Shown in pieces: positions 6,172-30,337 of a DNA stretch of 30,771 nucleotides. The position numbers and the translations under genes were made by a program. Position 1 is the first letter of the stretch; every line of letters starts with the position of its first letter. Below the pieces are notes generated by a model. The model saw only the letters and a list, made by a program, of their open reading frames with translations, had not been told where the DNA came from and ran no database searches. This DNA comes from a virus: IMG/VR virus record IMGVR_UViG_3300043803_001227, positions 1 to 30,771 of that record; one strand, 5' to 3'.

Positions 6172-6549
6172 TCAGCTGTACTTCTTCAGGCCGTAGCCAA
6201 AGCAGGTGACGTTGCTGGAAGCGGTGCCCGTCTCAGCGGTGCAGCTCAAACGGATGTAACGCTTGAGGTCATTGCTGTTCAGGGTGATCACCTGCTTTGA
6301 TGCAGCGTTGGCAATCGCGGTGAAGCTGCCGCCGGTGGCAGCGGCATAAGTCGAGTTGTCATCCGACTCTTCAATGCGGAAGGTCAGGTCAGCGCTAGCG
6401 CCAGCAGCAGTGCCGGCCAGGATGATCTGAACATCGCCTTCAAATCCTTGAAGGTCCACGCCGGTCTGGTTGCCGGTCGCGGTGATCGTGGTTGTAGCCA
6501 GAAGGGTGAAGTGCTGGAGTTTGTCCAGCGAAAGCTCATGAACAGCCAT
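6172..6549 (-). CDS. Small beta-rich virion protein of unknown role
   Basis: A 125-residue protein starting MAVHELSLDKLQHFTLLATT. It has the pattern 'TGVDLQGFEGDVQIIL.GT' and 'RIEESDDNSTYAAATGG', a family I know from many phages near the capsid gene, usually listed as hypothetical. The composition (Thr, Ala, Ser, strand-forming residues, ending in an aromatic/basic tail) fits a structural protein. The position after the major capsid and before the FII-like joiner would suit a head decoration or head-completion protein. One base separates it from the next gene. No enzyme motif is visible. Confidence 0.6.
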   Translation of the reverse strand: MAVHELSLDKLQHFTLLATTTITATGNQTGVDLQGFEGDVQIILAGTAAGASADLTFRIEESDDNSTYAAATGGSFTAIANAASKQVITLNSNDLKRYIRLSCTAETGTASSNVTCFGYGLKKYS

Positions 6550-6760
6550 CGGTTTGACGGGGGGTTGATTTACGGGAGCGAGGCTTTGCGGCCTCTGGTG
6601 CGGTGATCACCACCGGATCAGGACCTGGCGCCTGCTCAGCCCTGCCCATGGCCAGCAGGAGCCGGGCATCTGCAGGGGTTGCCTCCACCACGTCGCCAAC
6701 CCGTGCAGGCCGGCCACTGATTGAGGTTTGGCGCAAGATCCTGATCCTCATGGCCATCAC
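6536..6760 (-). CDS. Small head-region protein
   Basis: A 74-residue protein. A GTG at 6760 overlaps the capsid stop by 4 nt (GTGA) and an ATG at 6757 overlaps it by one; either may be used, and the second would give 73 residues. After 'MRIRILRQTSISGRPARVGD' comes 'VVEATPADARLLLAMGRAEQ', the pattern of short proteins next to phage capsid genes. The tail is basic (KPRSRKSTPRQT). It overlaps the next gene by 14 nt. The function is unknown, and a role in head completion is only suggested by location. Confidence 0.55.
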   Translation of the reverse strand: MMAMRIRILRQTSISGRPARVGDVVEATPADARLLLAMGRAEQAPGPDPVVITAPEAAKPRSRKSTPRQTDGCS

Positions 6761-8634: not shown

Positions 8635-10187
8635 GTTGAAGCGTCCTCCGGGTCGTCCTCGAGGTCGTCGTCGGGGTCTGGCTCGCTGGGATCTTCCGGC
8701 TCGTCATCCGTTTCCGGCTCAGCGTCGGGGGATCCGCCCTGCAGGTCGTCGGCGGGGTTGGTGTCGAACTGGATCCCCAGCTGCTCAGCCCGCTCCACCT
8801 CAGCGGCGCGCGCCAGAAGCAAATCCTCCAGATCGCCGCCTTGCTGGGCCACGACCTGCGCCTGCGTCGTGAAGCCGGAGCGGACCAGATCTCTGTTGGC
8901 CGCCGCTTCCTTCTGCGGGTCTACGAACTCCCAGCCGCGCGGGAACCACTTCACGGCTTCGTAGCGCTCTGGCGCCAGGTCGTAGCCCGGGAGCTGCAGG
9001 GTGCCGGCGCCAACGGCAGCAGCCATGGCACGCTCGAAAACGACCTGGCACACGTCTTCGATGATCCAATCCTGCAGGCTGCGCCAGAGCTCCAGCACCT
9101 CAAGCCGCTCAAGGCGGCTGCTGCTGTAGTTGGACTGGCTGTAGTCCGCGCTCACCGTGGGATAGGGCACGCCGGAGCCGGCGGCCAGTGAGCGCAGCAT
9201 GGGCCGCAGGAAGGCCTCGTACTCGGTGTCGGCGTTGCCCAGCTGCGGCACCGTGATGCTCTCACCCGGCGCCAGGTGCTTGAAGACACCGGGCTCGAAG
9301 TTGGTCAGCCGCTCGCCATCCTCCACGCCATCGCCGACGAGCTCGCCTTCGGGGCTCTGGATGAAGCCCATCAGGCTGGAGCGCGCGCGCTTGCCGACCA
9401 CTTCGGCCTCCTCGAAGCCGGCGACGTGGTGCATCCGCTTGATGCTGCTGGCGAACATCGGGACGCCCCTGGTCTGGCCGGGCCGCTCGGGGATGAACAG
9501 GTGGATGATCTGCTCGGCCGGCACGTCCCTAGTGCTGTAGCCGACGGCGCCCGACACGTCGCCAGGGTGGCGAAGGCGGAAGCGGTAGGCGGTGGGCCGC
9601 CCCCAGCGGTTGACCTGCACGCCCATGCGCCACTCGAGGCCATTGGCATCAGGGCCGACCGTGTGCGTCTCGTCGCAGAGATCGGCCTCGAGGATCTCCA
9701 GGCCCAGCGGTGTGTCGCTGTTGCCGAACGCCTCGGGCACCAGGCGGATGAACACCTCGCCCGATTCGGGAACGGCGGCCATGGACTGGCGCAGGATTCG
9801 CGCGAACGACAGCTTGCCGGCGGCGTGGATGTGCTCCTTGCGGCAGTAGCGGCGCCACCAGGCTTCGATGCGGTCGTTGGTTGGCTTGTCCAGCCGGCCA
9901 CCGCCGCGCACCATCGGCACCCGCGACTGCATCCGGATGCCGCGGCCGATCACGTTGGTGACGATCGCCCGGCGCGCTGCCTGCACGTAGGGGTTGTCCC
10001 TGAGCAGCTGCCGTGAGCGATTGCGCAGCCGCACCAGGCTGCCATCGATCTCCGCATCGGCGCTGGTGGAGCTTGTCACCCAGTCAGCCGTAAGGCGCGA
10101 CACCAGGGCGCCTTCGTAGGCGCGCCGGCCGCGGCGGGGGGCGGCTGGGGTCTGCTGCTGGGGCTGTTTGCCCTTGCGCTTGCTCAT
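8631..10187 (-). CDS. Portal protein (lambda gpB family)
   Basis: A 518-residue protein of the lambda-type portal family. Recognisable parts are 'LRNRSRQLLRDNPYVQAARR' near residue 55, 'TNVIGRGIRMQSRVP', 'ESGEVFIRLVPE', 'GLEILEADLCDE' and 'VPAEQIIHLFIPERPGQTRG', then 'SSIKRMHHVAGFEEAEVVGK'. The length is normal for the family. The portal is the dodecameric ring through which DNA is packaged by the terminase. The N-terminus is basic, while the last 40 residues are extremely acidic (many Asp/Glu/Pro), perhaps as a flexible tail or DNA mimic. A ribosome site GAGG lies 8 nt before the ATG at 10187. Confidence 0.92.
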   Translation of the reverse strand: MSKRKGKQPQQQTPAAPRRGRRAYEGALVSRLTADWVTSSTSADAEIDGSLVRLRNRSRQLLRDNPYVQAARRAIVTNVIGRGIRMQSRVPMVRGGGRLDKPTNDRIEAWWRRYCRKEHIHAAGKLSFARILRQSMAAVPESGEVFIRLVPEAFGNSDTPLGLEILEADLCDETHTVGPDANGLEWRMGVQVNRWGRPTAYRFRLRHPGDVSGAVGYSTRDVPAEQIIHLFIPERPGQTRGVPMFASSIKRMHHVAGFEEAEVVGKRARSSLMGFIQSPEGELVGDGVEDGERLTNFEPGVFKHLAPGESITVPQLGNADTEYEAFLRPMLRSLAAGSGVPYPTVSADYSQSNYSSSRLERLEVLELWRSLQDWIIEDVCQVVFERAMAAAVGAGTLQLPGYDLAPERYEAVKWFPRGWEFVDPQKEAAANRDLVRSGFTTQAQVVAQQGGDLEDLLLARAAEVERAEQLGIQFDTNPADDLQGGSPDAEPETDDEPEDPSEPDPDDDLEDDPEDAST

Positions 10188-10759
10188 CGCCCGAACCTCA
10201 CATAGAGCGAGCGCGGATCACCCAGGCCGGCGGCCACCTTTTCGGCGGCTTTCTCGCGGGCCACGATTGCTTTGAGCTGCGACTCGCGCTGCATCAGCTG
10301 GCCCAGGTCGGCAGCGTCGAACCGCCTACTGCCGATCGTGTAGCTCTTGAATCCCTTGTTGACGATGGCGCGGATCGCGGCGCGCACCTCATCGAGCTCC
10401 ACCTCAGCCTGGCTGCGGCCATCGAACGCACCGGGGCTGCCGGCGTAGCTCAGGCTGGCCAGCACCTGGAAGCTGCCAGATCCCACCGTGATCACCGTGG
10501 CGCCGCTGGTGATTCGGCTCTGCCAGCTCCAGGTGCCGGCATCGAAGGCGGCAGACGTGGTGGCGCTGATTGCCATGTCCCAGCCGCCATCGGTGCGGGC
10601 CGTGCCGGTCACCGTGGCGCCTTCGCTGGCGGTGTTGAAGCGCAGGAAGGCGGTGAACGTCCAGGCCGCTGAGGTGGCGGCGTTGCCGTCGAGGTCGAGC
10701 GCAGCCGGCTCCACCCATGCCACCGTGTCGCCGGCCCGGATTGTCGCAGGGACTGTCAT
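10184..10759 (-). CDS. Ig-like domain fused to gpW-like head-tail connector
   Basis: A 191-residue protein between the large terminase and the portal, exactly where lambda has W. Residues 1-115 form a beta-rich domain (MTVPATIRAGDTVAWVEPAA, 'AGTWSWQSRITSGATVITVG'). The C-terminal 70 residues ('EVRAAIRAIVNKGFKSYTIG', 'RRFDAADLGQLMQRESQL', 'GDPRSLYVRF') follow the gpW pattern of helix, beta hairpin and helix. gpW stabilises filled heads and forms the site for the next connector protein. The extra N-terminal domain is common in alphaproteobacterial and cyanobacterial relatives as I recall them, and could decorate the connector. It overlaps the portal by 4 nt. Confidence 0.72.
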   Translation of the reverse strand: MTVPATIRAGDTVAWVEPAALDLDGNAATSAAWTFTAFLRFNTASEGATVTGTARTDGGWDMAISATTSAAFDAGTWSWQSRITSGATVITVGSGSFQVLASLSYAGSPGAFDGRSQAEVELDEVRAAIRAIVNKGFKSYTIGSRRFDAADLGQLMQRESQLKAIVAREKAAEKVAAGLGDPRSLYVRFGR

Positions 10760-10763
10760 AGCC

Positions 10764-10781
10764 TCAGGCTAGGAAGCCTGA
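10764..10781 (-). repeat. Junction hairpin repeat, copy 4 (perfect)
   Basis: Plus-strand TCAGGCT-AGGA-AGCCTGA, a perfect 7-bp inverted repeat. It fills the 23-nt gap between the large terminase stop (10783) and the gpW-like start (10759), directly before the ATG. Confidence 0.75.
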
Positions 10782-10782
10782 T

Positions 10783-12723
10783 CTACCAGCCCGACACGAA
10801 ACCACCCGGGCGCGTTGGCGTGCTGGACCTGGCCTGGCGCTGCGGGGCGGCTGGCTTGGTGAGCTGCGCCTCCAGCTGGTCCCACATCGTCGCGCGGTTG
10901 TAGCGCCTGGCCACCAGCTGCAGCGCGGCGTAGGCCATGCGGGTGCAGTCGCCGGCTTCGTCGCGGGAGCCCGGGGGGCATTCCCACTTGTACTCCCTGC
11001 GCTCCTTGGTCTTGGGGATCCACTTCCACGGGAACAGCTCGCGCAGGAAGTCATCGGTTGAGGCGGTGCCGAAGTGCAGGTAACCGGGGCCCGGCTGCTC
11101 CACCCTGAGCTGCTTCTTCAAATGGTTCACGCTGTTCGTGTATCCCACGGTGTAGACCTTGGCCCCCTTGGCGACCGTCTGGTTCTTTCGGTTCACCTCC
11201 ACCGGCTTGCCTTTCTGGATGATCGGCAGATCCTTGAAGCCCGATCCCTTCATGGCCACCCATCGATCGGTGCGGGTCCGGCAGTAGTCGGCCACTGCCT
11301 TGCTGGAAAGGCCGCCGTGGTCAATGCCGCCCAAGGCGATCCGCATTTTCCCGCCATCCTGCCGGGCCCACGTGGTCTGACTCAGCTGGTCCAGCTGCTC
11401 CCACACCTCGGCCTGTTGAGGGTCGCCATCGATCTCGAAGTGGGCAATGTGCCAGCCTTCCTCACCGCGGCCCCAGCCCCAGACCGTCAGCACCAGTCGC
11501 TCGCCCACAGTGCCACCGCCGCCCTGCACGTCCACGCCCGCAGTGAGCACCAGCACGCCGGTAGGGATTGACCATGCCTCGCCGTTCCAGGGGTAGCCAT
11601 TGCCGAACCCTTCGCTCTTCCGGCGCTCCGCCAGCCCTTCCCCGGTCAACTTGCTGGTGATCGAATCCTCCCACGGCACTCCTAGGTCGGTGTTGTGGAA
11701 CGTCTGCATGGGATCGGTGTTGCCCATCTTCATCTGCTCCAGCGCCGTGCGGTGACGGCTCACCAGCTCCGGCCACATCGCTGCCCGGTGGTAGCTCATG
11801 CCGGGCCCCACCTGCTGGGATCGCCAGACCGGCACACCATTGCGCAGCACCTGCTTGCTGCGGTCCAGGCCCAGTGGACACGCCCAGCCGGCATCCTCGT
11901 CCATCTCCCGCAGGTGGCTGTAATCGATCGGCGTTTCGCAGTTCTCGCAGCTGATCCGGCCCTCGTCCGGCCCTTCCTTGATAAATCGCTCCCACCTCAA
12001 CTGCTGGTAGTGACGGCAGTGCGGGCAGGGATAGTAGCGGTACTGCTGATCGCCTTTCTTAAAGGCCTGCTCCATGTAGTCGTTGGGATAGATCGGGGTG
12101 CCGCCGATCGTGAAAAACGGATCCCAGATATTGCCGGCCCGCTGGAAGAGGTTGCCGATCGTGTCGCCCTCTGGGCTGTCGTAGGTGGCTGGCTCCTCGA
12201 ACAGGATCGGGCTTCGCTCCACCCGCCGGCCGGATCGCGGGGTGGCGGCGCTCACCAGGTGGATCAGGGCACCGTTCACCAGCTGCTTGAAGTTGTAGGC
12301 GTTCTTCGGCGCCCCCTTAGCCTTTCTGTTGCTGAGCATCCCCTTCAGCCGTGGGATGCCATGGTTGTCATCAAACATCGAATCAATGTCTTCGTGGCTG
12401 TAGGTGTCAACCTCAGAATCCGTAGGCTGCACCAGCATGATTTTGGACGGGCGCCAGTCGGTGAAGAACGCAATCACGGCCTTCACGTACTCAGACCACC
12501 CGACCCGCGACGGCTTCTGGCACACCATGCACTCCACTTCGGGGTCAGTGGGCGCCAGGAACCAATCCCGCTGGTATGGCCTGGTGTACCACCGTTGCCG
12601 GCCGTCTGTGGCGCTGGTGATGTAATAGTGCTGGTCGGAGTATTCCAGCATCGTCATGGGCGGCCGTGGCTTGACCTTGGCCGCCAGTCGCTGGGCCATC
12701 CTGCGCACGCTGCGGTCGATCAT
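10783..12723 (-). CDS. terL: Terminase large subunit (lambda gpA type)
   Basis: A 646-residue packaging ATPase-nuclease. The gpA hallmarks are present: 'RWYTRPYQRDWFLAPTDPEV', a deviant Walker A 'SRVGWSE' (residues 72-78, equivalent to 'SARVGYS' in lambda), a Walker B-like 'ILFEEPATYDSP', and a zinc-binding pair 'CPHCRHY' and 'CENCETPI' at about 230-265. The C-terminal half carries the nuclease-type acidic positions ('TAGVDVQGGG', 'GGIDHGGLSSKAVADYC') and 'PWKWIPKTKERREYKWECPP'. It cuts concatemers at cos or pac and pumps DNA through the portal. It overlaps the small-subunit gene by 4 nt (ATGA). The end is Gln/Arg-rich. Confidence 0.93.
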   Translation of the reverse strand: MIDRSVRRMAQRLAAKVKPRPPMTMLEYSDQHYYITSATDGRQRWYTRPYQRDWFLAPTDPEVECMVCQKPSRVGWSEYVKAVIAFFTDWRPSKIMLVQPTDSEVDTYSHEDIDSMFDDNHGIPRLKGMLSNRKAKGAPKNAYNFKQLVNGALIHLVSAATPRSGRRVERSPILFEEPATYDSPEGDTIGNLFQRAGNIWDPFFTIGGTPIYPNDYMEQAFKKGDQQYRYYPCPHCRHYQQLRWERFIKEGPDEGRISCENCETPIDYSHLREMDEDAGWACPLGLDRSKQVLRNGVPVWRSQQVGPGMSYHRAAMWPELVSRHRTALEQMKMGNTDPMQTFHNTDLGVPWEDSITSKLTGEGLAERRKSEGFGNGYPWNGEAWSIPTGVLVLTAGVDVQGGGGTVGERLVLTVWGWGRGEEGWHIAHFEIDGDPQQAEVWEQLDQLSQTTWARQDGGKMRIALGGIDHGGLSSKAVADYCRTRTDRWVAMKGSGFKDLPIIQKGKPVEVNRKNQTVAKGAKVYTVGYTNSVNHLKKQLRVEQPGPGYLHFGTASTDDFLRELFPWKWIPKTKERREYKWECPPGSRDEAGDCTRMAYAALQLVARRYNRATMWDQLEAQLTKPAAPQRQARSSTPTRPGGFVSGW

Positions 12724-13313
12724 TCCGGCAGCTCCTCAAAGGAATCGGATGCCACCGATTCGAAGACGTCGGAGATCATGCGCTCGATCTTTTCCAGCTC
12801 CCTATGCGTCAGGTGTGGAATGGCCGCTTTGATCTGTTTGTGCAGTGATCCGGCCTTCGTGGTCAGCTGCAGCAACACGGCGTTATAGGCCATCTCCATG
12901 TCTTCAATGTAGGCCAGCTGGCCGGCTTTCACCTTCCTGTCCATCTCAGCAATCAGCCGCTTCTCCCGTTCGTGGAGGGCCCGCTCATCGTTGAAGTTCG
13001 GCACCTCGCCGGGGTCGAGTGGCTCGGCTGGCTCGATCGGTTGGCGGCGGGGCGGGGCGAATACTGGCGGAGCTGGCCGCTCACGCTTTGCCGCTGGCTG
13101 CTGCGCTTCGGCCTGATGCGGCGCCACCCGAGCCAGGTACTCGCTCACCAGCAGGTCGCCATCCACCCGCAGCGGCTTAGCCTGCAGGATGCACGGGCTG
13201 CCCTGAAGCGCCCCACGCTCGCAGAGCTTCTCCAGGTTCTGGCGGGTGCAGCGGCGTCCGGCCTGGGCCTCGATCAGCTCGGCGCCCTTGGTGCTGTTCA
13301 GCTGGTTCGGCAT
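12720..13313 (-). CDS. Terminase small subunit-like protein (Nu1 position)
   Basis: A 197-residue protein directly before the large terminase. I chose the ATG at 13313 (MPNQLNSTKGAELIEAQAGR), since the upstream extension to 13382 overlaps the neighbouring gene's end and a hairpin. The first part (TRQNLEKLCERGALQGSPCI, 'VDGDLLVSEYLARVAP') resembles the DNA-binding winged helix of Nu1-like subunits, which read a helix followed by a 'VD...EY' wing. A proline-rich linker and a helical C-terminal domain (ERALHEREKRLIAEMDRKVK) follow, as expected for the large-subunit binding part. It recognises the packaging site. Confidence 0.75.
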   Translation of the reverse strand: MPNQLNSTKGAELIEAQAGRRCTRQNLEKLCERGALQGSPCILQAKPLRVDGDLLVSEYLARVAPHQAEAQQPAAKRERPAPPVFAPPRRQPIEPAEPLDPGEVPNFNDERALHEREKRLIAEMDRKVKAGQLAYIEDMEMAYNAVLLQLTTKAGSLHKQIKAAIPHLTHRELEKIERMISDVFESVASDSFEELPE

Positions 13314-13340
13314 TGCAACCAGCCTAGGGAGCGGTTGCAG
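13314..13340 (-). repeat. Junction hairpin repeat, copy 5 (divergent, extended arms)
   Basis: The core AGCCT-AGGG-AGC (13321-13332) matches the family weakly. Outside it, TGCAACC (13314-13320) and GGTTGCA (13333-13339) are perfect 7-bp inverse complements. The hairpin lies just before the small terminase ATG at 13313. Confidence 0.5.
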
Positions 13341-13354
13341 CTTGGTTGCACTCG

Positions 13355-13371
13355 CGAGCCTGAGCCTGTCA
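13355..13371 (-). repeat. Hairpin after the HNH gene stop
   Basis: On the minus strand GCCTGA-CAGGC-TCAGGC is a perfect 6-bp stem across the TGA stop of the HNH gene at 13369. There is no T-run after it. It shares the CCTGA/TCAGG arm bases with the junction hairpin family. Confidence 0.4.
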
Positions 13372-14160
13372 GGCCAAGGCAAGCGCCAACTGCTGGCCCT
13401 CGGGTGGGCGGATCACCCGGCGGATCCGGCGCAGGCGGAGCTCGCTGAAGAACGGCTGGCAGCGATACCAGGGCTCCATGTCGTTGAGTCGCTTGCTGGC
13501 GTTGCACGGCCAGCAGGCCGGCACGATGTTCCCGATGTCATGGGCGCCGCCCTTGCTGATCGGCTCCACGTGCTCGATTTGCATGTCGCCGCCGGTGCCG
13601 CAGTAGGCGCAGCAGTTGCCGAACTCGTTGAACCGTTGGCGCAGCGCCGCCACCGGGATCTGCACGGGGGTCTGGCCCCGGTTCTGAGCCTTGCGGCGCT
13701 TGGACTTTTCCCGGTGGTAAAGCCGCAGGTCGGGCTTGATCTGGTATTCCAGCCACCAGCTGGCCTGTGCCCATTGACGGTCGTGGGCGGCGCGATCACT
13801 TGGATGCTCGCGCCAGTGGCGGAGCTGCTCATCCATCACCAGGCGGGCGACGCTGGGGGATCGGCCGGCGCGGCGGATGGCCTTCTGTAGGGCCGTTGCA
13901 GGGGCGCCGTTGATCCGTTCGGTTCCACGGGTTGTCAGGCCTTTCTCTTTTAGCGCTCTCCTGATTGCGGGCCTGTGCTCGCGCATGTACTGGCGGTGGT
14001 ACTCGCGCTTTGCCTCCGTCAGCCGCGACTGCTCGCACTCAAGGCAATTCCCACCGACTTTTCTTCTAAGGCTTTGCCCGGTGCTTCTCCAGTCGTGCCC
14101 ACGCTTGCAAAGCGCTCCGAGGCGAAAGCGATCGCTATCAAATGCGTAGCCTGGTTCCAT
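13369..14160 (-). CDS. HNH endonuclease
   Basis: A 263-residue protein with a C-terminal HNH core at about residues 184-222: 'CCAYCGTGGDMQIEHVEPIS', then 'KGGAHDIGNIVPACWPCNAS'. The Cys pairs and EH..P, N, and C..CN positions fit the zinc-bearing HNH class. Near the N-terminus 'LCKRGHDW' and 'CLECEQSRL' form a second putative zinc knuckle, often linked to target recognition. HNH proteins next to terminase genes assist DNA cleavage during packaging in many cos phages, which is the likely role here. Its location just upstream of the small terminase supports this. A homing-type HNH is the alternative. Confidence 0.85.
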   Translation of the reverse strand: MEPGYAFDSDRFRLGALCKRGHDWRSTGQSLRRKVGGNCLECEQSRLTEAKREYHRQYMREHRPAIRRALKEKGLTTRGTERINGAPATALQKAIRRAGRSPSVARLVMDEQLRHWREHPSDRAAHDRQWAQASWWLEYQIKPDLRLYHREKSKRRKAQNRGQTPVQIPVAALRQRFNEFGNCCAYCGTGGDMQIEHVEPISKGGAHDIGNIVPACWPCNASKRLNDMEPWYRCQPFFSELRLRRIRRVIRPPEGQQLALALA

Positions 14161-15282: not shown

Positions 15283-15427
15283 CCTTCACCTCTCGAACAT
15301 GGATCACAGTCTGATGCGGGTGCAACGTGCGCCACAGCCACCCAGCCGCCCAGGCTGATCGGGCCATGATGCGGTGGTCACGGGTGCGGCAGGGGTCGTG
15401 CCGGACGGTGACCCAGAACGCGCGCAT
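15257..15427 (-). CDS. Small conserved-looking hypothetical protein
   Basis: A 56-residue ORF starting MRAFWVTVRHDPCRTRDHRI. Its ATG shares one base with the RusA stop (TGATG), the standard junction of this operon, and its 3' end overlaps the gpZ-like GTG start by 26 nt. Composition (Trp, His, Arg, strand-like 'FWVTVRH' and 'QTVIHVREV') suggests a folded small domain. It explains the otherwise empty 144 bases between the RusA and Z-like genes. No family is recognised. Confidence 0.55.
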   Translation of the reverse strand: MRAFWVTVRHDPCRTRDHRIMARSAWAAGWLWRTLHPHQTVIHVREVKGGGDSDQH

Positions 15428-15843
15428 CAGCCCTTGATCTCCCTGATCTCGATCCGGCAGCCCTCCAGCTCGCCAGGCAAGGTGTACTCCTTGCTGGCCA
15501 CCAGGAAGGCCACCTGCGAATCATCAGCGAACAGCACGCCGGTAAGCGCATCGAGGGTGCTGCGGCAGAGCTTGTCCAGGTCGGGCCGGGTGATGTGCTC
15601 GATGCGCGCTGATGCCTTGATCTGCCCCTTGCTGTCGTGGTGCCCCTTCGGCCGCCTGAACCTGAACAACAGGTGCAGGTAGATCGGCTCAGCAGAAATG
15701 GCCAGGCCGGTGGCGATTGCCTCCTGCCTGACCGCTTCGCGCCATGGCTTCACCTTGGCGCTTGACTCCACCATCCGGCCGCCGCCCACATGGCGTTTGC
15801 TGCCCTGCGGGGCGGGGCTGAGGCCGAGCACGGTGAAGATCAC
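15427..15843 (-). CDS. rusA: RusA family Holliday junction resolvase
   Basis: A 138-residue protein with the RusA family signature. It has an N-terminal strand with 'FTVLGLSPAPQGSKRH', a conserved 'RPDLDKLCRSTLDALTGVLF' in which the Asp residues bind metal, and 'ADDSQVAFLVASKEY' following. The enzyme cuts four-way junctions to resolve branched replication or recombination intermediates before packaging. I chose a GTG at 15843 that follows the upstream gene's stop by 4 nt and puts the strand at the N-terminus. The frame is open further, to a TTG at 15888. A GGAG sits 10 nt upstream. It follows two small genes and precedes structural genes. Confidence 0.85.
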   Translation of the reverse strand: MIFTVLGLSPAPQGSKRHVGGGRMVESSAKVKPWREAVRQEAIATGLAISAEPIYLHLLFRFRRPKGHHDSKGQIKASARIEHITRPDLDKLCRSTLDALTGVLFADDSQVAFLVASKEYTLPGELEGCRIEIREIKG

Positions 15844-15847
15844 GCCC

Positions 15848-16072
15848 TCATCGCTCCGCCTCACGGCACAGCCACTGAGTTGCCTCAATCAAAGACATGG
15901 GCCGGCCTGCCTGTTGCTCAAGCACGATCAGCTCGGCCGCCAGGTGGGCCAAGGTGAGCCGGGCCATCTGGCTGATCCAGGTGGCGCTGCAATCGGCCTC
16001 GATCATCGCCTCGGTCATGGCCGACACCGTGCGATCCACCAGGGTGTCCTGGGTGGTTTCTTGAATGCTCAT
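15848..16072 (-). CDS. Small helical hypothetical protein
   Basis: A 74-residue protein (MSIQETTQDTLVDRTVSAMT) that is almost entirely helical in composition, with an acidic first half and 'LTLAHLAAELIVLEQQAGRP' and 'SLIEATQWLCREAER' after it. The start overlaps the stop of the next upstream gene by 4 nt (ATGA). No known motif was seen. Its place between a helical coiled-coil protein and the RusA gene suggests a DNA-metabolism accessory protein, but nothing in the sequence shows this. Confidence 0.6.
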   Translation of the reverse strand: MSIQETTQDTLVDRTVSAMTEAMIEADCSATWISQMARLTLAHLAAELIVLEQQAGRPMSLIEATQWLCREAER

Positions 16073-16422
16073 GGCTGCGGGCTCCTGATGGTCCAGAACG
16101 GGGCGCCGACCTTGACCGTGGCTGACCCATCGGCCTCGGCGGCAGCCTTGGCGGCCTTGGTTTTGGACTCCAGCTCCTGGACGGCGGCGGGGTAGGCCCA
16201 GGACTTGCGGCCGGCGCTCCAGCTGAACGCCCAGTCGTTGTGCGAGAAGCCGCCCTGATCAACTTCGCCGGCCGCAGCCAGCTGATCCAGTCGATCCAGC
16301 AGGGCCTCATCGGTGGCCTTGAGGCGGGCCAGGGCTTGGCGGACCTCGACCAATCGATCCAGGACCTGATCGGCGTCCATAGCGTCGAGATCAACCTCGA
16401 CAGTCTGAGTGAGATCAGCCAT
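16069..16422 (-). CDS. Helical hypothetical protein in the recombination cluster
   Basis: A 117-residue protein; I chose the ATG at 16422 (MADLTQTVEVDLDAMDADQV) because the 44 residues further upstream are low-quality read-through. A helical segment (VEVRQALARLKATDEALLDR) precedes a short aromatic part (FSHNDWAFSWSAGRKSWAYP) and a second helix. It loosely recalls small phage proteins next to exonuclease genes. A 30-residue ORF (16415-16507) overlaps its start by 8 nt. I cannot assign a function. Confidence 0.6.
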   Translation of the reverse strand: MADLTQTVEVDLDAMDADQVLDRLVEVRQALARLKATDEALLDRLDQLAAAGEVDQGGFSHNDWAFSWSAGRKSWAYPAAVQELESKTKAAKAAAEADGSATVKVGAPFWTIRSPQP

Positions 16423-16554: not shown

Positions 16555-16584
16555 ACCCTACTAGCTCGGTATGGCGGCTGGCAA
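16555..16584 (-). promoter_or_regulatory. Candidate promoter of the morphogenesis operon
   Basis: On the minus strand TTGCCA (16584-16579, five of six bases to TTGACA) is followed after 18 nt by TAGGGT (16560-16555). The same TAGGGT with an 18-nt spacer and a TTG box precedes the operon at 26558. It points into the long minus-strand gene series that ends with the tape measure. The match to the -10 consensus is only moderate. Confidence 0.5.
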
Positions 16585-16587
16585 GCA

Positions 16588-17253
16588 TCAGAACGGCGTA
16601 GGCTCAGCGTTCCGAGCCCGCCACGTCGCCCAGGCGCCAGCCCAGGCCAGTAGGCACTCCTGGCGGGAATACAGCGGGCTGAAGGTGGTCTGGCCGGGCC
16701 TGGCCCAGATCGTCTGCCCAGCGTCGTAGTGGTTGCCCCAGGTGGCTTCGAGCGCCATGTAGCCGCCGATCTGCGCCCGGGTGTCGTAGGTGCTGCCGTT
16801 CTCCCCCAGGCTCTTGAGGTCGGCCAGGATGCGCCGGCCCTGCTCGTCGATGTAGGCGCAGTCGAAGGTGCCGGCCACCTTGCGGCGCAGGCAGCAGGTG
16901 GGGCGCTCTGACGCGATCACCTGCAGCTGGTGCCAGCGGTCGTGGGTGAGCAGTGGCGCGATCCAGTCGGCGTAGGGGCCGGCGATCAGTTCGGACAGTT
17001 CGTGGCCGCTGACTGGCTGCCCCCCAAACTCAAAAGCCAGCATCAGCTCCAGCGCCCGATGGCAGCTGTTACCCCTGGGCTCCCAGGTGGCGCGGGTCGC
17101 CTCGATGCGATCCATGGCGTAGTCGCTCTTCGTGCAGCCGATCACGCCGGTGACGCTCACGGGGAACTCCACATCGCCCAGCCAGTAGCGGTGTTCAGGG
17201 TCTCGGCGGTGAAGGCCGGCGATGGGTGGGAGCCAGGGGTGCGGGGTGGGCAT
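16588..17253 (-). CDS. PD-(D/E)XK nuclease, RecB/Cas4-like exonuclease
   Basis: A 221-residue protein. The N-terminal part has 'SVTGVIGCTKSDYAMDRIEA' and 'RGNSCHRALELMLAFEF', where the His-containing helix with Glu is typical of RecB-like nucleases. The active site is 'RKVAGTFDCAYIDEQGRRIL' and then 'ADLKSLG', giving the Asp, Asp-x-Lys set, followed by 'QIGGYMALE', the usual motif with Gln and Tyr. Phage enzymes of this class process dsDNA ends for recombination, working with a ssDNA-annealing or binding protein. The rich Trp/Cys content is unusual for the group. It is transcribed toward the repeat-free side and ends just before the late promoter. Confidence 0.75.
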   Translation of the reverse strand: MPTPHPWLPPIAGLHRRDPEHRYWLGDVEFPVSVTGVIGCTKSDYAMDRIEATRATWEPRGNSCHRALELMLAFEFGGQPVSGHELSELIAGPYADWIAPLLTHDRWHQLQVIASERPTCCLRRKVAGTFDCAYIDEQGRRILADLKSLGENGSTYDTRAQIGGYMALEATWGNHYDAGQTIWARPGQTTFSPLYSRQECLLAWAGAWATWRARNAEPTPF

Positions 17254-24325: not shown

Positions 24326-25597
24326 ATGATCGTCGGCTACGCCAGGGTGAGCACCGACAAGGCCGAGCAGGATGTTTCGATCGCCGAGCAGGTGCAGCAG
24401 CTCAAGGCGGCCGGCTGCGATCGGGTGATCGCCGAGCGGCGCAGCGCGCACAAGGAAGCAGCCCGCCCCGGCTGGGAGGAACTGCTGGCGCTGGTGGCCG
24501 GCGGCAGGGTGCGGCGCGTGGTGGCCATCAGCCTGTCGCGCCTCAGCCGCAAGGGGGAAGACGTGCCCTTCCTGCGGATGTGCGCTCGCCGCGGCGTTGA
24601 GGTCCAGCTGCTCGACGGCACCCCAGCCGACACCGCCGACCCGGCCGGGAAACTGCTCACCGGCGTGCTGTCGCTGGTGAACGAGATCGACAGCGACATC
24701 AAGGCGATCAACACCCGCAACGGCCTGGCCAGGCGCAAGGCCCAGGGGCACTACGCCTGCGGCCGGGTGCCCTTCGGCTACGCCTACGACGGCTCCCAGG
24801 TAGTACCGCACCCTGAGCGCTTCAGCGAAGCCCGGCAGCTGTGGGAGCGCCTCGAGGCCCAGGAGTTCAACCTGCCCGGCACCATCCGCCGCCATGGGCT
24901 GCAGTGGAGCGCCAGGGGGCTGGGGCGGTGGATCAACAACCCGATCCTGCGCGGCATCGTGAACCACGAACCGGCCCGGGTGGCGCCGCTGATCAGCTGG
25001 GCGGAATGGCAGCAGGCCCGGCGGCTGCTGGAGTCGCGTCGGATCGGTGGCACCAGAGCGCCGCGGGTGTTGCGGGTGTTTTCGGGCCTGGTGCGCTGCG
25101 GCTTCTGCGGCAAGGCCAGCCACTACGCCATGAACGCAGGCCAGCCGCGCCTGAAGTGCACCAACCTGCACTGCAGCCACTACGGCCGGGGCCTGGCTGA
25201 GTGGAAGGCGCGGGCCCAGGTCATTGCCGAGCTGCGGGCTGCTGCTGATCAGATGGCCTCGACCGCCGCGGCCCCGACCATCACCGAAGCCACGCCAGCC
25301 GATCAGGCCAAGCGCGCCCAGGTGGCGCAGCTCGAAGCACTTGCGGCTCAGGGTGTGCCGGGCCTGGCCTCGACGATCGAAGCGCTGCGGCTGGAGCTGC
25401 TGGCACCGCCGCCGGTGGCTTCAGCGAACTGGGCCGGCTACCGGGAGTTGCTGGCGCGGCCCGGCGTGCTGGAGGCGGCCACGGCTGAGGAGCTGCGGGC
25501 TGTGGTGCTGGAGCTCGTCGAGCAGCTGGTCTACGTCGGGGATCCCAACAGGGTCGAAGTCCGGCTGCGCAGCAGCGCGAGCGGCAATCCGGCGTAG
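24326..25597 (+). CDS. Large serine recombinase (XisF-like integrase)
   Basis: A 423-residue serine recombinase. The resolvase domain begins MIVGYARVSTDKAEQDVSIA with catalytic Ser9, and shows 'VRRVVAISLSRLSRKGEDVP' with the arginines of the active site. The recombinase domain follows ('RKAQGHYACGRVPFGYAYDG', 'RGLGRWINNPILRGIVNHEP') and then a zinc ribbon ('LVRCGFCGKASHY', 'CTNLHC'). The remainder is a helical coiled-coil-like segment with an Ala-rich linker. The shape fits cyanobacterial XisF-type recombinases, which excise DNA elements, or phage integrases. It sits between the plus and minus blocks rather than at an element's edge. A possible attP should lie near 24236-24325 or 25598-25766. 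Confidence 0.88.
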   Translation: MIVGYARVSTDKAEQDVSIAEQVQQLKAAGCDRVIAERRSAHKEAARPGWEELLALVAGGRVRRVVAISLSRLSRKGEDVPFLRMCARRGVEVQLLDGTPADTADPAGKLLTGVLSLVNEIDSDIKAINTRNGLARRKAQGHYACGRVPFGYAYDGSQVVPHPERFSEARQLWERLEAQEFNLPGTIRRHGLQWSARGLGRWINNPILRGIVNHEPARVAPLISWAEWQQARRLLESRRIGGTRAPRVLRVFSGLVRCGFCGKASHYAMNAGQPRLKCTNLHCSHYGRGLAEWKARAQVIAELRAAADQMASTAAAPTITEATPADQAKRAQVAQLEALAAQGVPGLASTIEALRLELLAPPPVASANWAGYRELLARPGVLEAATAEELRAVVLELVEQLVYVGDPNRVEVRLRSSASGNPA

Positions 25598-25728
25598 AGC
25601 GGTCTGGGCGTCCATGCTCGACACTCTGAGCCCCGCTGCGCCGATACGTCAAGGCTCAGGCTCGCGGATCTGACCTGCAGCAGTGGCGCAGCAGTCCGGC
25701 AATCCGTGTTGCCGAGCCTGATCTGAGC

Positions 25729-25749
25729 GCCTTACCGTCTCAGTAAGGC
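25729..25749. promoter_or_regulatory. Operator-like inverted repeat O1
   Basis: GCCTTAC (25729-25735), 7 nt, GTAAGGC (25743-25749): a perfect 7-bp inverted repeat 17 nt before the regulator start at 25767. A second, slightly altered copy with the same spacing lies at 26512-26532. It is a likely autoregulation site of the XRE protein. Confidence 0.65.
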
Positions 25750-25766
25750 ACCAACCCACAGCACTC

Positions 25767-26468
25767 ATGAGCACCTCCTACTCACTGATCCGAGCCCAGC
25801 AAGGCGAAGCCGCCGTCGAGTTCGGCAAGATGTTGCGCCGTTGGCGTGTCGCCAATGGTTGGACCCAATACACCGCCAAGCGCTGGGCCGAGGAGGCCGG
25901 GCATCCTTCGATCAGCCACAGCGGCATCAGCGAGCTGGAGCAGGCGAAAACCAAGGCGCCGCGCACCGCGGTGTTCCTCAGCCTGGCCGAGCTGAACCAG
26001 CGGGTCGCCGATGCCGACTTCACCGGAGTTCGGAGCCGGGACCTCAGGGACCAGCTCGAGGGGTCGATCCCGATCGCGCACGAGGATGGCACCCCCTGGG
26101 GCCCTGGAGACTTTTGGGAGTGCCACGCCGGCCTCAGAGCTGCACCGCCCTACCTGGCCGCCCCGACGACCCACCCCTGCCCGGAGTTGACCGATGAGCA
26201 GGCTGCCGAGCTGTGCGCCAGCTGGGCTGCTCAGGCCCGCCAGTTGGTGGTGGCCCGGGGCGGTCGGCCTGCCGATCTGATGCGCGTGGGAGCAGCCGCG
26301 CCGGCCCGATTCCGTGATGGCTGGTCAGCGGTGGCGCTGGGCCTGGCGACCTGGAGCCCACAGGAGCTGGCGGAGGTGTGGGACCAAAACGCCAGCGAGT
26401 GGAAACCGGCGGCCTGGCTGGCCACCTGGGCTGAGTCGCTCCCGGCCGCGCCGGGGGGGGGGGGGTGA
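25767..26468 (+). CDS. XRE-family helix-turn-helix regulator
   Basis: A 233-residue protein. Residues about 17-60 form an XRE-like helix-turn-helix ('EFGKMLRRWRVANGWTQYTA', 'SISHSGISELEQAKTKAPR'). The rest is helical with 'ELTDEQAAELCASWAAQARQ' and 'VALGLATWSPQELAEVWDQN' and has no LexA-type protease motif, so it would not respond to RecA cleavage. It probably represses its own promoter and the following operon through the O1 and O2 repeats. The gene ends in 13 G residues (encoding Gly), and loss of one would replace the last residues by another ten. No SD is visible before its ATG. Confidence 0.72.
   Translation: MSTSYSLIRAQQGEAAVEFGKMLRRWRVANGWTQYTAKRWAEEAGHPSISHSGISELEQAKTKAPRTAVFLSLAELNQRVADADFTGVRSRDLRDQLEGSIPIAHEDGTPWGPGDFWECHAGLRAAPPYLAAPTTHPCPELTDEQAAELCASWAAQARQLVVARGGRPADLMRVGAAAPARFRDGWSAVALGLATWSPQELAEVWDQNASEWKPAAWLATWAESLPAAPGGGG
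26453..26465 (+). other. Run of 13 G at the end of the regulator gene
   Basis: A G13 tract lies at the 3' end of the regulator, just before the TGA. Length changes would alter only the last residues and the stop position. Such tracts may slip in replication, but a sequencing error is equally possible. Confidence 0.9.
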
Positions 26469-26502
26469 GGTTCGAAATCCTGAGCTAAGTAGCTGTTGAT
26501 AC

Positions 26503-26532
26503 TTGCGGCTCGCCTTACTGATCTGGTAGGGT
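26503..26532 (+). promoter_or_regulatory. Promoter with overlapping operator O2 for the 26558-30337 operon
   Basis: TTGCGG (26503-26508), 18 nt, TAGGGT (26527-26532) form a promoter-like pair. The inverted repeat GCCTTAC, 7 nt, GTAGGGT (26512-26532) covers the spacer and the -10 box, with the half site GCCTTAC identical to O1. A transcript would start about 26539, so the GTG at 26531 cannot be the gene start. Confidence 0.55.
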
Positions 26533-26557: not shown

Positions 26558-27223
26558 ATGCACCCAATGTCCACAGAGCTGGCGCTCAAGGCTTTCGAGG
26601 CCGATGCCTCGTTCAGCACTGCGCTCGCTGAGTTCCAATCGAAGGCCGATCCAGGCCTGAGCCCCATCCAGGCGGCCCGCGCCGCCACCGCCCATGGCTT
26701 TTCTTGGCTGGCCCGCCCTAGCGGCCCTGGCCTGATTGAGGTCCGGCTCCGCCACAGCGGCGGCGCCGACGCCGCGGCCGAGGGCCCCTGCCTGTCTGAG
26801 CTGTTAGCTGGCCTGTTGGGCCTGGCTCCCGGCGACGAGACGCCCACCGCGGCGCCGCTTCCACTGCAGCAGCCGCCTCAGGCTCCCGAGCCGGTGCAAA
26901 GTATGCACGAATCGCATACAGCGCCGGAGCCGGATCCGGTGGAGGTCGCCGCCGAATCACTGGCCGCGGCCACCGGCGGCACCGTCGTCGAGGCTGACGA
27001 GCCGGACCCCACCACGCCGCTGACTGCTGAGCAGCGGGAGGCGGCGTTGGAGATGGTGAAGGCCTTGAGCCCATACGAGCGCAAAGCGTTCACGATCAGC
27101 TTCCGAGATGCGTTCCGAGTTGATCGCTCCGTGAAGGCCATTGCCCCGGTGATCCAGCAGCTGCGCCACCTGCACTTCATCGACCGCTTCACCGTCGAGG
27201 CCGCCGGGGGTGTGGCGCCATGA
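26558..27223 (+). CDS. First gene of the early operon, unknown protein
   Basis: A 221-residue protein. The ATG at 26558 (MHPMSTELALKAFEADASFS) or the one at 26567 starts it, since the frame upstream lies before the predicted transcript start. The N-terminal third is helical. A low-complexity, Pro/Glu-rich middle ('LPLQQPPQAPEPVQ', 'APEPDPVEVAAES') links to a C-terminal domain, 'LTAEQREAALEMVKALSPYE' and 'KAIAPVIQQLRHLHFIDRFT', that looks like a compact helical fold. No family is recognised. Being first behind an operator-controlled promoter it may be an early regulator or replication adaptor. Confidence 0.6.
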   Translation: MHPMSTELALKAFEADASFSTALAEFQSKADPGLSPIQAARAATAHGFSWLARPSGPGLIEVRLRHSGGADAAAEGPCLSELLAGLLGLAPGDETPTAAPLPLQQPPQAPEPVQSMHESHTAPEPDPVEVAAESLAAATGGTVVEADEPDPTTPLTAEQREAALEMVKALSPYERKAFTISFRDAFRVDRSVKAIAPVIQQLRHLHFIDRFTVEAAGGVAP

Positions 27224-27492
27224 ACGATCCCCGCAACCGTGAGCGGCTGCGTCGGGCGCTCGACCTGATTGAGCAGATCGCCGGCGAGCACCAGAGCGCC
27301 CTGAACGATCGCGCCGCGGCGACCCTGAACCAGAACCCGGGCCCCATCGGGATCGGGCGGATGCTGCACCTCAGCCGCCGCTGCGACGCCCTGGAGCGCG
27401 TCGGCCGTGAGATCCACGAACTGCTCGACAACGACCCACCCGGGCGCCGCCTGGCGCTGGTCGAGGCCGAGCCCGACACCGCCGCCGCATGA
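27220..27492 (+). CDS. Small helical hypothetical protein
   Basis: A 90-residue protein, MNDPRNRERLRRALDLIEQI, that is mostly helical with an acidic end (ALVEAEPDTAAA). The phrase 'GRMLHLSRRCDALERVGREI' looks like a second helix. It overlaps the previous stop and the next start by 4 nt (ATGA), so it is part of the coupled operon. It has no known motif, membrane segment or zinc site. The position upstream of a ribbon-helix-helix protein and an ssDNA-binding protein fits a DNA-metabolism accessory role, not shown by the sequence. Confidence 0.6.
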   Translation: MNDPRNRERLRRALDLIEQIAGEHQSALNDRAAATLNQNPGPIGIGRMLHLSRRCDALERVGREIHELLDNDPPGRRLALVEAEPDTAAA

Positions 27493-27683
27493 CCGATCCC
27501 CCAGCCAAACCACGCGACTACGGGCGCGCCAAAGAACGCCCAAGCCACCACCTGATGGTGGTTCTGCGCGCCGATGCCCTTGACGCTGTGCGCCGCGTGA
27601 TGCGGGAGCACAACCTGAGCAAGTCCGGCGCCGTTCATCACCTGGTCCGCCTCGGCGCGGGCCTGTCATCCCTCCTTCCCTGA
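27489..27683 (+). CDS. Ribbon-helix-helix-like protein
   Basis: A 64-residue protein with a basic, flexible start (PPAKPRDYGRAKERPSHHLM), then a strand 'HLMVVLRADALDAVRRVM' and a helix pair ending 'NLSKSGAVHHLVRLGAGL'. This is the strand-helix-helix layout of CopG/Arc-type DNA-binding proteins, in which the strand 'MVVLR' makes the DNA contact and 'SKSGAVHHLVRLG' is helix two. A dimer would bind an operator. It ends just 8 nt before the ssDNA-binding gene. It could regulate the operon together with the XRE protein. Confidence 0.6.
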   Translation: MTDPPAKPRDYGRAKERPSHHLMVVLRADALDAVRRVMREHNLSKSGAVHHLVRLGAGLSSLLP

Positions 27684-27690
27684 AACACCC

Positions 27691-28266
27691 ATGGCATCTG
27701 AGACCTTCTACAGCCCCAAGGCGCCTGTGCGCTGGGCTCACCTGATCAACGCCGACGAGTACGAAGGCAAGTACAGCTACAGCTGTGAGCTGGTGCTGAG
27801 CCCTGCCACCGAGCCAAGCCACAAGGCATACCTCGACAAGCTCGAGGCCGAGTTCGTTGCGCTGCACGGAGCGAAGAAAGCCCGCAGCAGCAAAGGCACA
27901 CCCTGGAAGGCCGACAAGGACGACGCCAGTAAGGTGGTCGTCAGGTTCAAGGCCAACCGCTTCACGAACGACGACGGCACGCACAGCAAAGGGCCGCGGA
28001 TTGTTGACGCGAAGAAAGCGGCCTGGGATGGCAGCGAGATTGGCAACGGGTCGATCTTGATCGTTGGCCACACGATGTATCCGTGGAGCCGCTCCGAAGG
28101 CTGCGGCATCACCCTGCAGCCGCGTGCGGTGCAGGTGGTGAACTTCGTGCCCCGCGAAGATCCCGGTGAGCAGATCGCCGACGGATTCGAGGAGCAGGAA
28201 GGCTACAGCGTGGCCGATGCCGGCAGCTATCACGACGAGTTCGCCGATGAGGAGGTCCCTTTCTGA
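27691..28266 (+). CDS. Phage ssDNA-binding protein (DUF2815-like)
   Basis: A 191-residue protein. The start, MASETFYSPKAPVRWAHLIN, followed by 'YSYSCELVLSPATEPSHKAY', 'VVVRFKANRFTNDDGTHSKG' and 'GHTMYPWSRSEGCGITLQPR', follows the OB-fold pattern of phage ssDNA-binding proteins of the DUF2815/gp2.5 type ('.P.Y.w..l..p...y.v.l.l....'). The acidic tail ends in 'DEFADEEVPF', resembling the SSB tip 'DDDIPF' used to recruit replication proteins. It covers single-stranded DNA and is likely to work with the primase-helicase and the RecB-like nuclease. The frame is one of the most solid in the operon. Confidence 0.78.
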   Translation: MASETFYSPKAPVRWAHLINADEYEGKYSYSCELVLSPATEPSHKAYLDKLEAEFVALHGAKKARSSKGTPWKADKDDASKVVVRFKANRFTNDDGTHSKGPRIVDAKKAAWDGSEIGNGSILIVGHTMYPWSRSEGCGITLQPRAVQVVNFVPREDPGEQIADGFEEQEGYSVADAGSYHDEFADEEVPF

Positions 28267-28517: not shown

Positions 28518-28669
28518 AGGGCACCACGATTGCTTCCATTGCGCTTTCGTCCCTGTCGCTGGCCTTCAACGCCAGCGCCGACCGCTGGGAGTGGGCTTTA
28601 TGGGCCGGGCTTGCCTCGGCCTCAGTGGCAGTCGCACTGGCCGCACACGATCTCTGGGGGCGGCCATGA
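28514..28669 (+). CDS. Tiny membrane protein 1
   Basis: A 51-residue ORF, MKGTTIASIALSSLSLAFNA, with 'WEWALWAGLASASVAVALAA' making a likely membrane segment and a second, more polar hydrophobic stretch before it. It ends 'HDLWGRP' and overlaps both neighbours by 4 nt, which supports its being a real gene despite its size. Together with the following gene it makes a pair of short membrane proteins in front of the sigma factor. The function is unknown. Confidence 0.5.
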   Translation: MKGTTIASIALSSLSLAFNASADRWEWALWAGLASASVAVALAAHDLWGRP

Positions 28670-28809
28670 AGCCCGCCACCCGCACCGCCCTGTCTGCGGC
28701 CCTGCTCGTCGGGGCCTGGGCGGTGGTGCTGATCGGCTGGCCCAGCACCATCTCGGCCTGCTTCGCCGGGCTGCTGGCGCTGGTGGCGGTGTTCTTGGCG
28801 CCGCTCTGA
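28666..28809 (+). CDS. Tiny membrane protein 2
   Basis: A 47-residue ORF, MKPATRTALSAALLVGAWAV, with two hydrophobic segments ('ALSAALLVGAWAVVLIG' and 'CFAGLLALVAVFLAPL'). A short basic N-terminus suggests the cytoplasmic end. It overlaps the previous stop by 4 nt and the sigma factor ATG by one base (TGATG). The size and two helices would fit a holin, an anti-sigma membrane anchor or a superinfection-exclusion peptide, but no evidence separates these. Confidence 0.5.
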   Translation: MKPATRTALSAALLVGAWAVVLIGWPSTISACFAGLLALVAVFLAPL

Positions 28810-29759
28810 TGGCTTCCACCGAGTCGGCCACCGCCTGGCTCGAAGCAGCCGGCCGTCATCCACTCCTCACAGCCGCCGAGGAGCTCCACTGTGGAGCCCT
28901 GGTCCGTGCCTGGCAGGATCACCCTGCCGGGCCTGAGCAGGCACCTCCAGCGGTCAAGCGGCGGGGCCTGCGGGCCAGGGATCGCCTGATCACCGGGAAC
29001 TTGCGCATGGTCGGGCACGTCGCCCAGCGAGCGCAGCACGGGTCAGGCAAGGCGCTGGCCCTTGAGGATGCCCTGCAGGTTGGCGCCATCGGCCTCCAGC
29101 GCGCTGCTGAGAAGTTCGACCCTGCCCGGGGATACAAGTTCTCGACGTATGCCTTTTGGTGGATCCGCCAGGCGATCAGCCGGGAAGCCGAAGTCAGCAG
29201 CCGCACCATCCGGCTGCCGAGTGGCTTCGCCTCACGGGTGGGACGGCTTGAAGGCGTGCGCGAACAGCTGGCCTGTGAGCTTGGCCGGATGCCATCCACC
29301 GGCGAGATCGCGGCGGCGCTGAACATTTCGGTCGAGGAGCTGCTGGAGCTCAGCCGCCGCGGCCAGGGCTGCCTCAGCCTTGACGTGCATTACGGCGACG
29401 ACAACGGCCACAGCTTGGCTGACATCGTGGCCGCACCCAGCGCCCCGGACGACCCTCAGCGCGCCGAGCTGCTGGCCCGCATCCACAACCTGGAGCCCGA
29501 CCTGGCGCGGCTGGTGAAGATGCGCTGGGGGATTGGCCAGCCGGCCCGCAACTCGAAGGAGCTGGCGGCGCTGCACGGCGTCACCAGCCACCGCATCCAC
29601 CAGCGGTTGCGCCAGGCCGAAGCGCTGCTGCGCCATAACGTCAACTGCCGGGCCGCAGCTCGGCCAGTAGATCCCGGGCCCATTCCTGGTGCCGCTCAAG
29701 CGGTGGTGCAGCTCAGCCTCAGGCTTCCGAGTCCGAACACCTCACCGAGCGAACCATGA
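28809..29759 (+). CDS. Sigma-70 family RNA polymerase sigma factor
   Basis: A 316-residue sigma factor, with the ATG at 28809 overlapping the previous stop by one base. Region 1.2 is 'WLEAAGRHPLLTAAEELHCG'. Region 2 reads 'ARDRLITGNLRMVGHVAQRA' then 'EDALQVGAIGLQRAAEKFDP', 'ARGYKFSTYAFWWIRQAISR' and 'SSRTIRLP'. Region 3 follows ('ACELGRMPSTGEIAAALNIS'), and region 4 contains 'RLVKMRWGIG' and the helix-turn-helix 'SKELAALHGVTSHRIHQRLR'. It lacks the conserved basic tail of housekeeping sigma factors. It resembles picocyanobacterial group 2/3 sigma factors and should direct host polymerase to phage promoters, perhaps the TTG-N18-TAGGGT sites. It is cotranscribed with the ssDNA-binding gene. Confidence 0.9.
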   Translation: MASTESATAWLEAAGRHPLLTAAEELHCGALVRAWQDHPAGPEQAPPAVKRRGLRARDRLITGNLRMVGHVAQRAQHGSGKALALEDALQVGAIGLQRAAEKFDPARGYKFSTYAFWWIRQAISREAEVSSRTIRLPSGFASRVGRLEGVREQLACELGRMPSTGEIAAALNISVEELLELSRRGQGCLSLDVHYGDDNGHSLADIVAAPSAPDDPQRAELLARIHNLEPDLARLVKMRWGIGQPARNSKELAALHGVTSHRIHQRLRQAEALLRHNVNCRAAARPVDPGPIPGAAQAVVQLSLRLPSPNTSPSEP

Positions 29760-30337
29760 GCCACACCCTGCGAATTAGGCGCAACGACTGGGAGGTGCGG
29801 CCCGTATCTATTGACGTTGGGCGCCGGCTTGTCGAGTCGTTTCATTACGCAAAGGGCGCATCCAACACCCGCACATACCTGCACGGGCTGTTCCCGAAAG
29901 GGGCCTTCTGGGATGAGCAGTGCGTCGGGGTGGCGTGGTGGATTCCGCCGACACGAACTGCGGCAGAGGCCACCTACCCAGCCAACTGGCAAGGGGTGCT
30001 GGCCCTGTCACGGCTGGTGATCGCGCCTGGTGTGCCCAAGAACTCCTGCAGCTTTCTGCTCGCCAGGTCCGTGAAGATGATCTGCCCGAAAAAGTGGCCG
30101 TGTCTTGTCACTTACGCGGACCAATGGCGAGGCCACGAAGGCGGCATCTACAGGGCATCGAACTGGCAGTACCTCGGGCTGACGGGCGCAGAGGCCACTT
30201 ACACCATCGCGGGGGTCATGACGGCACGGAAAGCAGGCGGCTACACCCGCACCCATTCAGAGATGCAGGATCTCGGCGCGGTCCTTGAGGGGCGCCACGC
30301 GAAACACAAGTACGTCCTGATTAGGGGCAAGTCCTAG
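29756..30337 (+). CDS. Mom-like adenine modification protein (GNAT fold)
   Basis: A 193-residue protein, overlapping the sigma stop by 4 nt. It shows the pattern of the Mu Mom family: 'VESFHYAKGASNTRTYLHGL', 'VGVAWWIPPTRTAAEATYPA', 'GVLALSRLVIAPGVPKNSCS' with a following 'FLLARSVKMI', then 'LVTYADQWRGHEGGIYRASN' and 'WQYLGLTG'. Mom changes adenine to a bulky carbamoyl-type derivative and shields phage DNA against restriction. Conserved His, Tyr, Ser-Arg and Asp positions appear intact. It is visibly less GC-rich than its neighbours, so it may have come from elsewhere. A general GNAT enzyme is an alternative. Confidence 0.6.
   Translation: MSHTLRIRRNDWEVRPVSIDVGRRLVESFHYAKGASNTRTYLHGLFPKGAFWDEQCVGVAWWIPPTRTAAEATYPANWQGVLALSRLVIAPGVPKNSCSFLLARSVKMICPKKWPCLVTYADQWRGHEGGIYRASNWQYLGLTGAEATYTIAGVMTARKAGGYTRTHSEMQDLGAVLEGRHAKHKYVLIRGKS

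Follow-up and report, generated by a model that had tools for sequence, protein, structure and literature searches.

What does a regulator gene control when it sits between two matching inverted repeats in a viral genome? The question is raised by the virus record analysed here, a stretch of 30,771 bases that we refer to as the window. An initial annotation had placed one operator before (O1) and one after (O2) the gene of an XRE-family regulator, and had predicted an autoregulated repressor that also controls a replication/sigma operon, in the manner of a lysogeny-type switch. Our analysis suggests that the regulator is probably the immunity repressor of a temperate picocyanobacterial siphovirus, which would hold down its own gene, the operon behind O2 and a RusA-packaging block. 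That the locus is a dormancy switch appears very probable, because viruses related to this one and cyanobacterial genomes, dozens in all, share its layout.

Gene content of the window

The head, portal and terminase genes of the window resemble those of the Synechococcus siphoviruses S-CBS1, S-CBS3 and S-LBS1, and its relatives point to Synechococcus or Cyanobium as the likely host. On the plus strand, the integrase gene is followed by the regulator gene, by O2 and then by seven overlapping or closely spaced genes. The minus strand carries, in this order, the genes for primase and exonuclease, a third site (O3), and the genes for a 117-aa protein, RusA, HNH, terminase, portal and head protein (Table 1). 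No tRNA gene was found in the window as an attachment site. Control of a replication/sigma operon, as predicted, holds in part: O2 lies on the promoter of an operon with annealing/SSB-like, sigma and Mom-like genes, but the replicative primase is encoded on the minus strand, upstream of O3 and without such a dyad site.

Table 1. Features of the window that bear on the proposed switch.
Feature	Position	Strand	Remark
O1, putative operator GCCTTAC-CGTCTCA-GTAAGGC	25729-25749	+	regulator's own promoter; left half overlaps -10 TACCGT
O2, putative operator GCCTTAC-TGATCTG-GTAGGGT	26512-26532	+	-10 TAGGGT inside right half
O3, putative operator GCCATAC-N7-GTAGGGT (GCCATACCGAGCTAGTAGGGT)	16555-16575	-	between exonuclease gene and RusA/terminase/portal/capsid block
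Putative regulator promoter TTGCCG-18-TACCGT	25709-25738	+	18-bp geometry also at O1 of L100, L146, L149
Putative O2 operon promoter TTGCGG-18-TAGGGT	26503-26532	+	sequence match
Putative promoter at O3, TTGCCA-18-TAGGGT	16555-16584	-	sequence match
Serine integrase	24326-25597	+	upstream of regulator; profile matches
XRE-family regulator, 233 aa	25767-26468	+	HTH near residues 18-76 with its recognition helix at 51-58; C-terminal domain helical, no S24 signature
13-G tract, 3' end of regulator gene	26453-26465	+	tract of variable length conserved there in near relatives
g3, first gene of O2 operon	26558-27223	+	start moved to ATG after O2
g5, 64 aa, candidate ribbon-helix-helix protein	27489-27683	+	predicted extended segment-helix-helix; also in XRE-less relatives
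Gp2.5-like ssDNA-binding/annealing protein	27691-28266	+	phrog_112, 3.5e-14
Phage sigma-70 family factor	28530-29759	+	profile matches
Mom-like DNA modification gene	29756-30337	+	Pfam Mom 1.1e-23; last gene of sigma operon
Exonuclease	16588-17253	-	phrog_298, 7e-11; just upstream of O3
Conserved 117-aa protein	16069-16422	-	downstream of O3; start placed at ATG
RusA-like resolvase	15427-15888	-	downstream of O3
Terminase small and large subunits, portal, head protein	6757-13382	-	downstream of O3

Three matching sites on three promoters

The sequence bears out O1 and O2 in position, in their 7-nt spacers and in the shared left half GCCTTAC, and O2 does overlie a promoter's spacer together with its -10 box, as the initial annotation had it. 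Both palindromes are real, but a count of two was incomplete, O3 on the minus strand having been overlooked. O3 was first met among four window matches with at most three mismatches, and a second search of the window returned it as a one-mismatch match to GCCTTACN7GTARGGY. With a weight matrix made from O1, O2 and O3 themselves, the three sites score 25.8, 24.5 and 23.2 bits and the next best in the window 12.8 bits; since the matrix was made from these very sites, it is the gap to the next site that is informative. An abundance of similar palindromes throughout the window, which the initial annotation would have counted against itself, was thus not seen. Two sites in the window lie within two mismatches of O1, compared with none in 97 and one in three of 100 dinucleotide shuffles. 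Perfect 7-bp dyads with a 7-nt spacer are not rare in themselves (four in the window), and when matching N7 dyads of any sequence were paired blindly, the window gave 16 pairs and 20 shuffles gave 2-15, no clear excess over chance. What carries the case is therefore the location of the sites, the third site and conservation.

Each site lies on the -10 box of a putative TTGCnn-18-TAnnGT promoter, the box falling in the left arm at O1 and in the right one at the other two sites. TTGCnn-18-TARGnT is found in 20 of 33 non-redundant relatives, near the regulator gene's end or past it, and spacers of 14-17 or 19-22 between the TTGCnn and TARGnT boxes in none of the 33. A consensus scan for sigma-70 promoters returned no strong one, the -35 boxes matching TTGACA weakly; we assume that the host sigma factor reads these promoters.

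Conservation of the layout and of the arms

Searching with a profile of five regulators yielded 28 viral loci and 12 loci in Synechococcus, Cyanobium or related cyanobacterial assemblies; a direct search of viral contigs with the regulator sequence gave no matches, and the loci appeared only with the profile. Cultured Synechococcus that carry a relative include 1G10, CS-1330 and CS-1325. Across 33 non-redundant loci, the dyad core TTAS-N7-STAR lies upstream of the regulator in seven and downstream in 11, where about 0.2 would be expected in each case, and any other spacing from 2 to 13 yields at most one locus. The same core follows the exonuclease gene in 7 of 15 loci, only at spacing 7. A pattern search of 25 virus records returned 16 matches against 1 for the reversed control, and the exact O2/O3 composite pattern had no matches in viral contigs. 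In near relatives, the dyads occur almost only at the O1, O2 and O3 positions and, as in the window, a serine integrase precedes the regulator. In support of the lysogeny-type switch, this layout is conserved across relatives and adjoined by the integrase in the nearer ones; the regulator is the presumed binder of the sites.

The association has exceptions on both sides. L099 and L102 have the regulator and no such dyad, and several distant relatives are without the left arm. Upstream of g3, G008/L161 has neither regulator nor integrase and yet keeps perfect dyads; G018/L145 likewise has neither, with altered dyads, and in L156-L158 regulator and dyads are both absent and the promoter remains.

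The arms of the dyads differ between genomes and agree within each, reading TTAC/GTAA in the window, G016, G025 and G013, TTAG/CTAA in G015, G005, G011 and G031, and RTAC/GTAY in G029 and G030. Agreement of the inner base is 0.957 against a shuffled mean of 0.466, a value reached by none of 20,000 shuffles, and is to be read as a description and not as a probability, because half-sites were gathered by hand, each palindrome enters with its two arms separately, and related genomes do not form independent observations.

Two further observations concern dyads elsewhere. Downstream of the regulator in L126 and L128, the promoter spacer holds a different dyad, of GGCTCAG-N4-CTGAGCC type, perhaps another operator class. 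In the near-identical phage L077 (G025; terL 99.5%), an extra 302-aa gene follows O3 with a second dyad copy beyond it (dyads at 6341-6359 and 7440-7458), an arrangement that a joint insertion of gene and operator could have produced.

The regulator as candidate binder

Placed between O1 and O2 and predicted to carry an XRE-type HTH, the regulator is the natural candidate to bind the dyads. The window protein matches the HTH_31 profile at 2.2e-05 (25.1 bits, just below the Pfam cut-off of 27), and HTH profiles are matched by 15 of 31 family members, at best with 3.7e-09. Its AlphaFold2 model has a mean pLDDT of 91, with helices at 36-44 and 51-58, and Foldseek matched it in part to XRE proteins, among them 2ofy and viral HTH_XRE entries, in no case with E < 0.001. 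For an S24 or LexA-type C-terminal domain there was neither a Pfam match in the 31 members nor a significant fold match, and a PDB sequence search with the regulator profile returned nothing convincing. The window regulator and the distant member L129 had no match in 50,697 phage records, nor had L129 in 72,556 plasmid records.

We also considered whether residues of the HTH determine the arms. Columns 38 and 67 separate two arm classes, but not beyond chance among the near lineages: 21 of 35 possible splits of these lineages are also separated by some columns, and overall support is weak (0.03). This candidate was rejected. Our certainty that the XRE protein is the binder is held back by the dyads of G008/L161, by the arms of L146 and L149 (discussed below) and by the dyad-less L099 and L102.

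Proposed mechanism and alternatives

We propose that an XRE dimer would bind the dyad through its core, TTAS-N7-STAR. At O1 it would cover the -10 box of its own promoter and therefore limit its own synthesis; of the autoregulated repressor predicted initially, the position of O1 is seen in the sequence, and the XRE protein is the presumed binder. At O2 it would cover the -10 box of the operon that runs from g3 to g5 and on through the annealing protein, sigma factor and Mom genes, and at O3 that of the promoter before RusA and the terminase/portal/capsid block. All the sites would be occupied during lysogeny, and loss of the repressor would open the three promoters together. We infer binding by XRE, repression as its outcome, induction, the lysogenic context and transcription that starts at O3 and reaches the packaging genes.

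Another phage protein may recognise the dyads in place of XRE, or compete with it for them as a Cro-like factor; we consider this rather unlikely. The candidate for such an alternative or additional binder is g5, whose predicted two helices follow an extended segment, and two sets of relatives speak in its favour: the XRE-less G008/L161 keep the dyads and carry g5, and L146 and L149, with identical XRE recognition helices and nearly identical HTHs, differ in their operator arms, which read CGTAC..GTATG in one and CTTAG..CTAAG in the other, and also in their g5 strands (KVQTKLR versus YVMTVLR). However, arm class cannot be read from the strand residues, which at the facing positions are alike in the window and L149 although the arms of these two differ; Pfam and PDB profiles of ribbon-helix-helix families gave no match, and O1 lies on the XRE promoter and not beside g5. 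A replacement regulator in the XRE-less genomes was also sought in a small protein, some 62 aa long, in which an HTH comes after a membrane-type helix. Encoded divergently from the integrase or g3, it occurs in G008 (42493-42678), G015, G016, G018, G021, G022 and S-CBS3 (28597-28773) and was not found in the window. It was rejected, as it coexists with XRE in other relatives; the reading is weakened further by the promoter-like sequences before its gene in G008, which have no left arm.

It is very unlikely, in our view, that the repeats are promoter elements only, with the -10 arms kept for the polymerase and the palindromes incidental. One arm of each site is indeed a -10 box, and L156-L158 and several distant relatives keep the promoter without the dyad; but the other arm, which plays no part in the promoter, is nonetheless conserved at exactly 7 nt, and its inner base varies together with the -10 arm. 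Least credible of all is activation by the regulator at these sites. The type of HTH leaves the sign of regulation free, and the weak -35 boxes would suit an activated promoter, but the three dyads lie over the -10 box or start region, where exclusion of the polymerase is expected. Repression by XRE hence remains our preferred reading.

A G tract at the end of the regulator gene

The regulator gene of almost every near relative ends in a tract of 10 to 43 G, which starts 13-67 nt before the stop codon (window, L008, L099-L101, L103-L106, L121, L146, L149 and L166). The tract is often the sole G/C run of at least 8 in the whole locus, and its lengths occur in all three frames. Slippage could swap short C-terminal tails or alter read-through into the O2 operon, making this a contingency tract that tunes dormancy, which we think unlikely; the variation in length may be an assembly or sequencing error, and the tract upstream of O2 may be a plain terminator. 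A second recurrent tract (9-17 G) lies shortly before the exonuclease in L046, L051, L054, L055, L132 and L137, followed by the conserved motif TA(A/C)TAC...GGGCGGGAA(A)TCGGGAA.

Relation to known phage repressors

The CI-type repressors of 434 and lambda are an obvious comparison, the operator of coliphage 434 being ACAA-N6-TTGT. The proposed system shares with them an XRE-type HTH, a dyad whose four-letter arms stand about 6-7 nt apart, operators over -10 boxes, the autoregulation proposed here and an integrase nearby. It differs in that the window has single dispersed operators at three promoters and not a divergent tandem cluster with cro; regulator and O2 operon run in tandem with one dyad each, without divergent repressor/cro promoters. 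Moreover, its regulator has a helical C-terminal domain without an S24 peptidase match, and one of its operators precedes a RusA/packaging block. In phage P1 (C1) and mycobacteriophage L5 (Gp71), one repressor acts on copies of a site scattered over the phage genome. The likeness to these is one of layout, a single candidate repressor with dispersed copies of one site, although the window has only three sites, all on promoters. Most likely, then, the system would work like a dispersed-operator phage repressor; a lambdoid CI region it is not.

In the literature that we searched, no publication on this operator site was found. S-CBS1 and S-CBS3, which are related lytic isolates, and S-LBS1 share capsid, portal, terminase and sigma factor homologues with the window, but neither such a regulator nor such dyads were found in them. 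The authors of the P-SS2 genome reported no identifiable repressor (PMC2784084), and the word 'repressor' is absent from the S-LBS1 paper (PMC6157547).

To conclude, one type of site is found both at an early operon and at the promoter that precedes a packaging block. A repressor family and operator code common to cyanosiphoviruses and Synechococcus/Cyanobium assemblies offers a handle for finding lysogens, in which induction is testable, and the operator arms could predict immunity groups.
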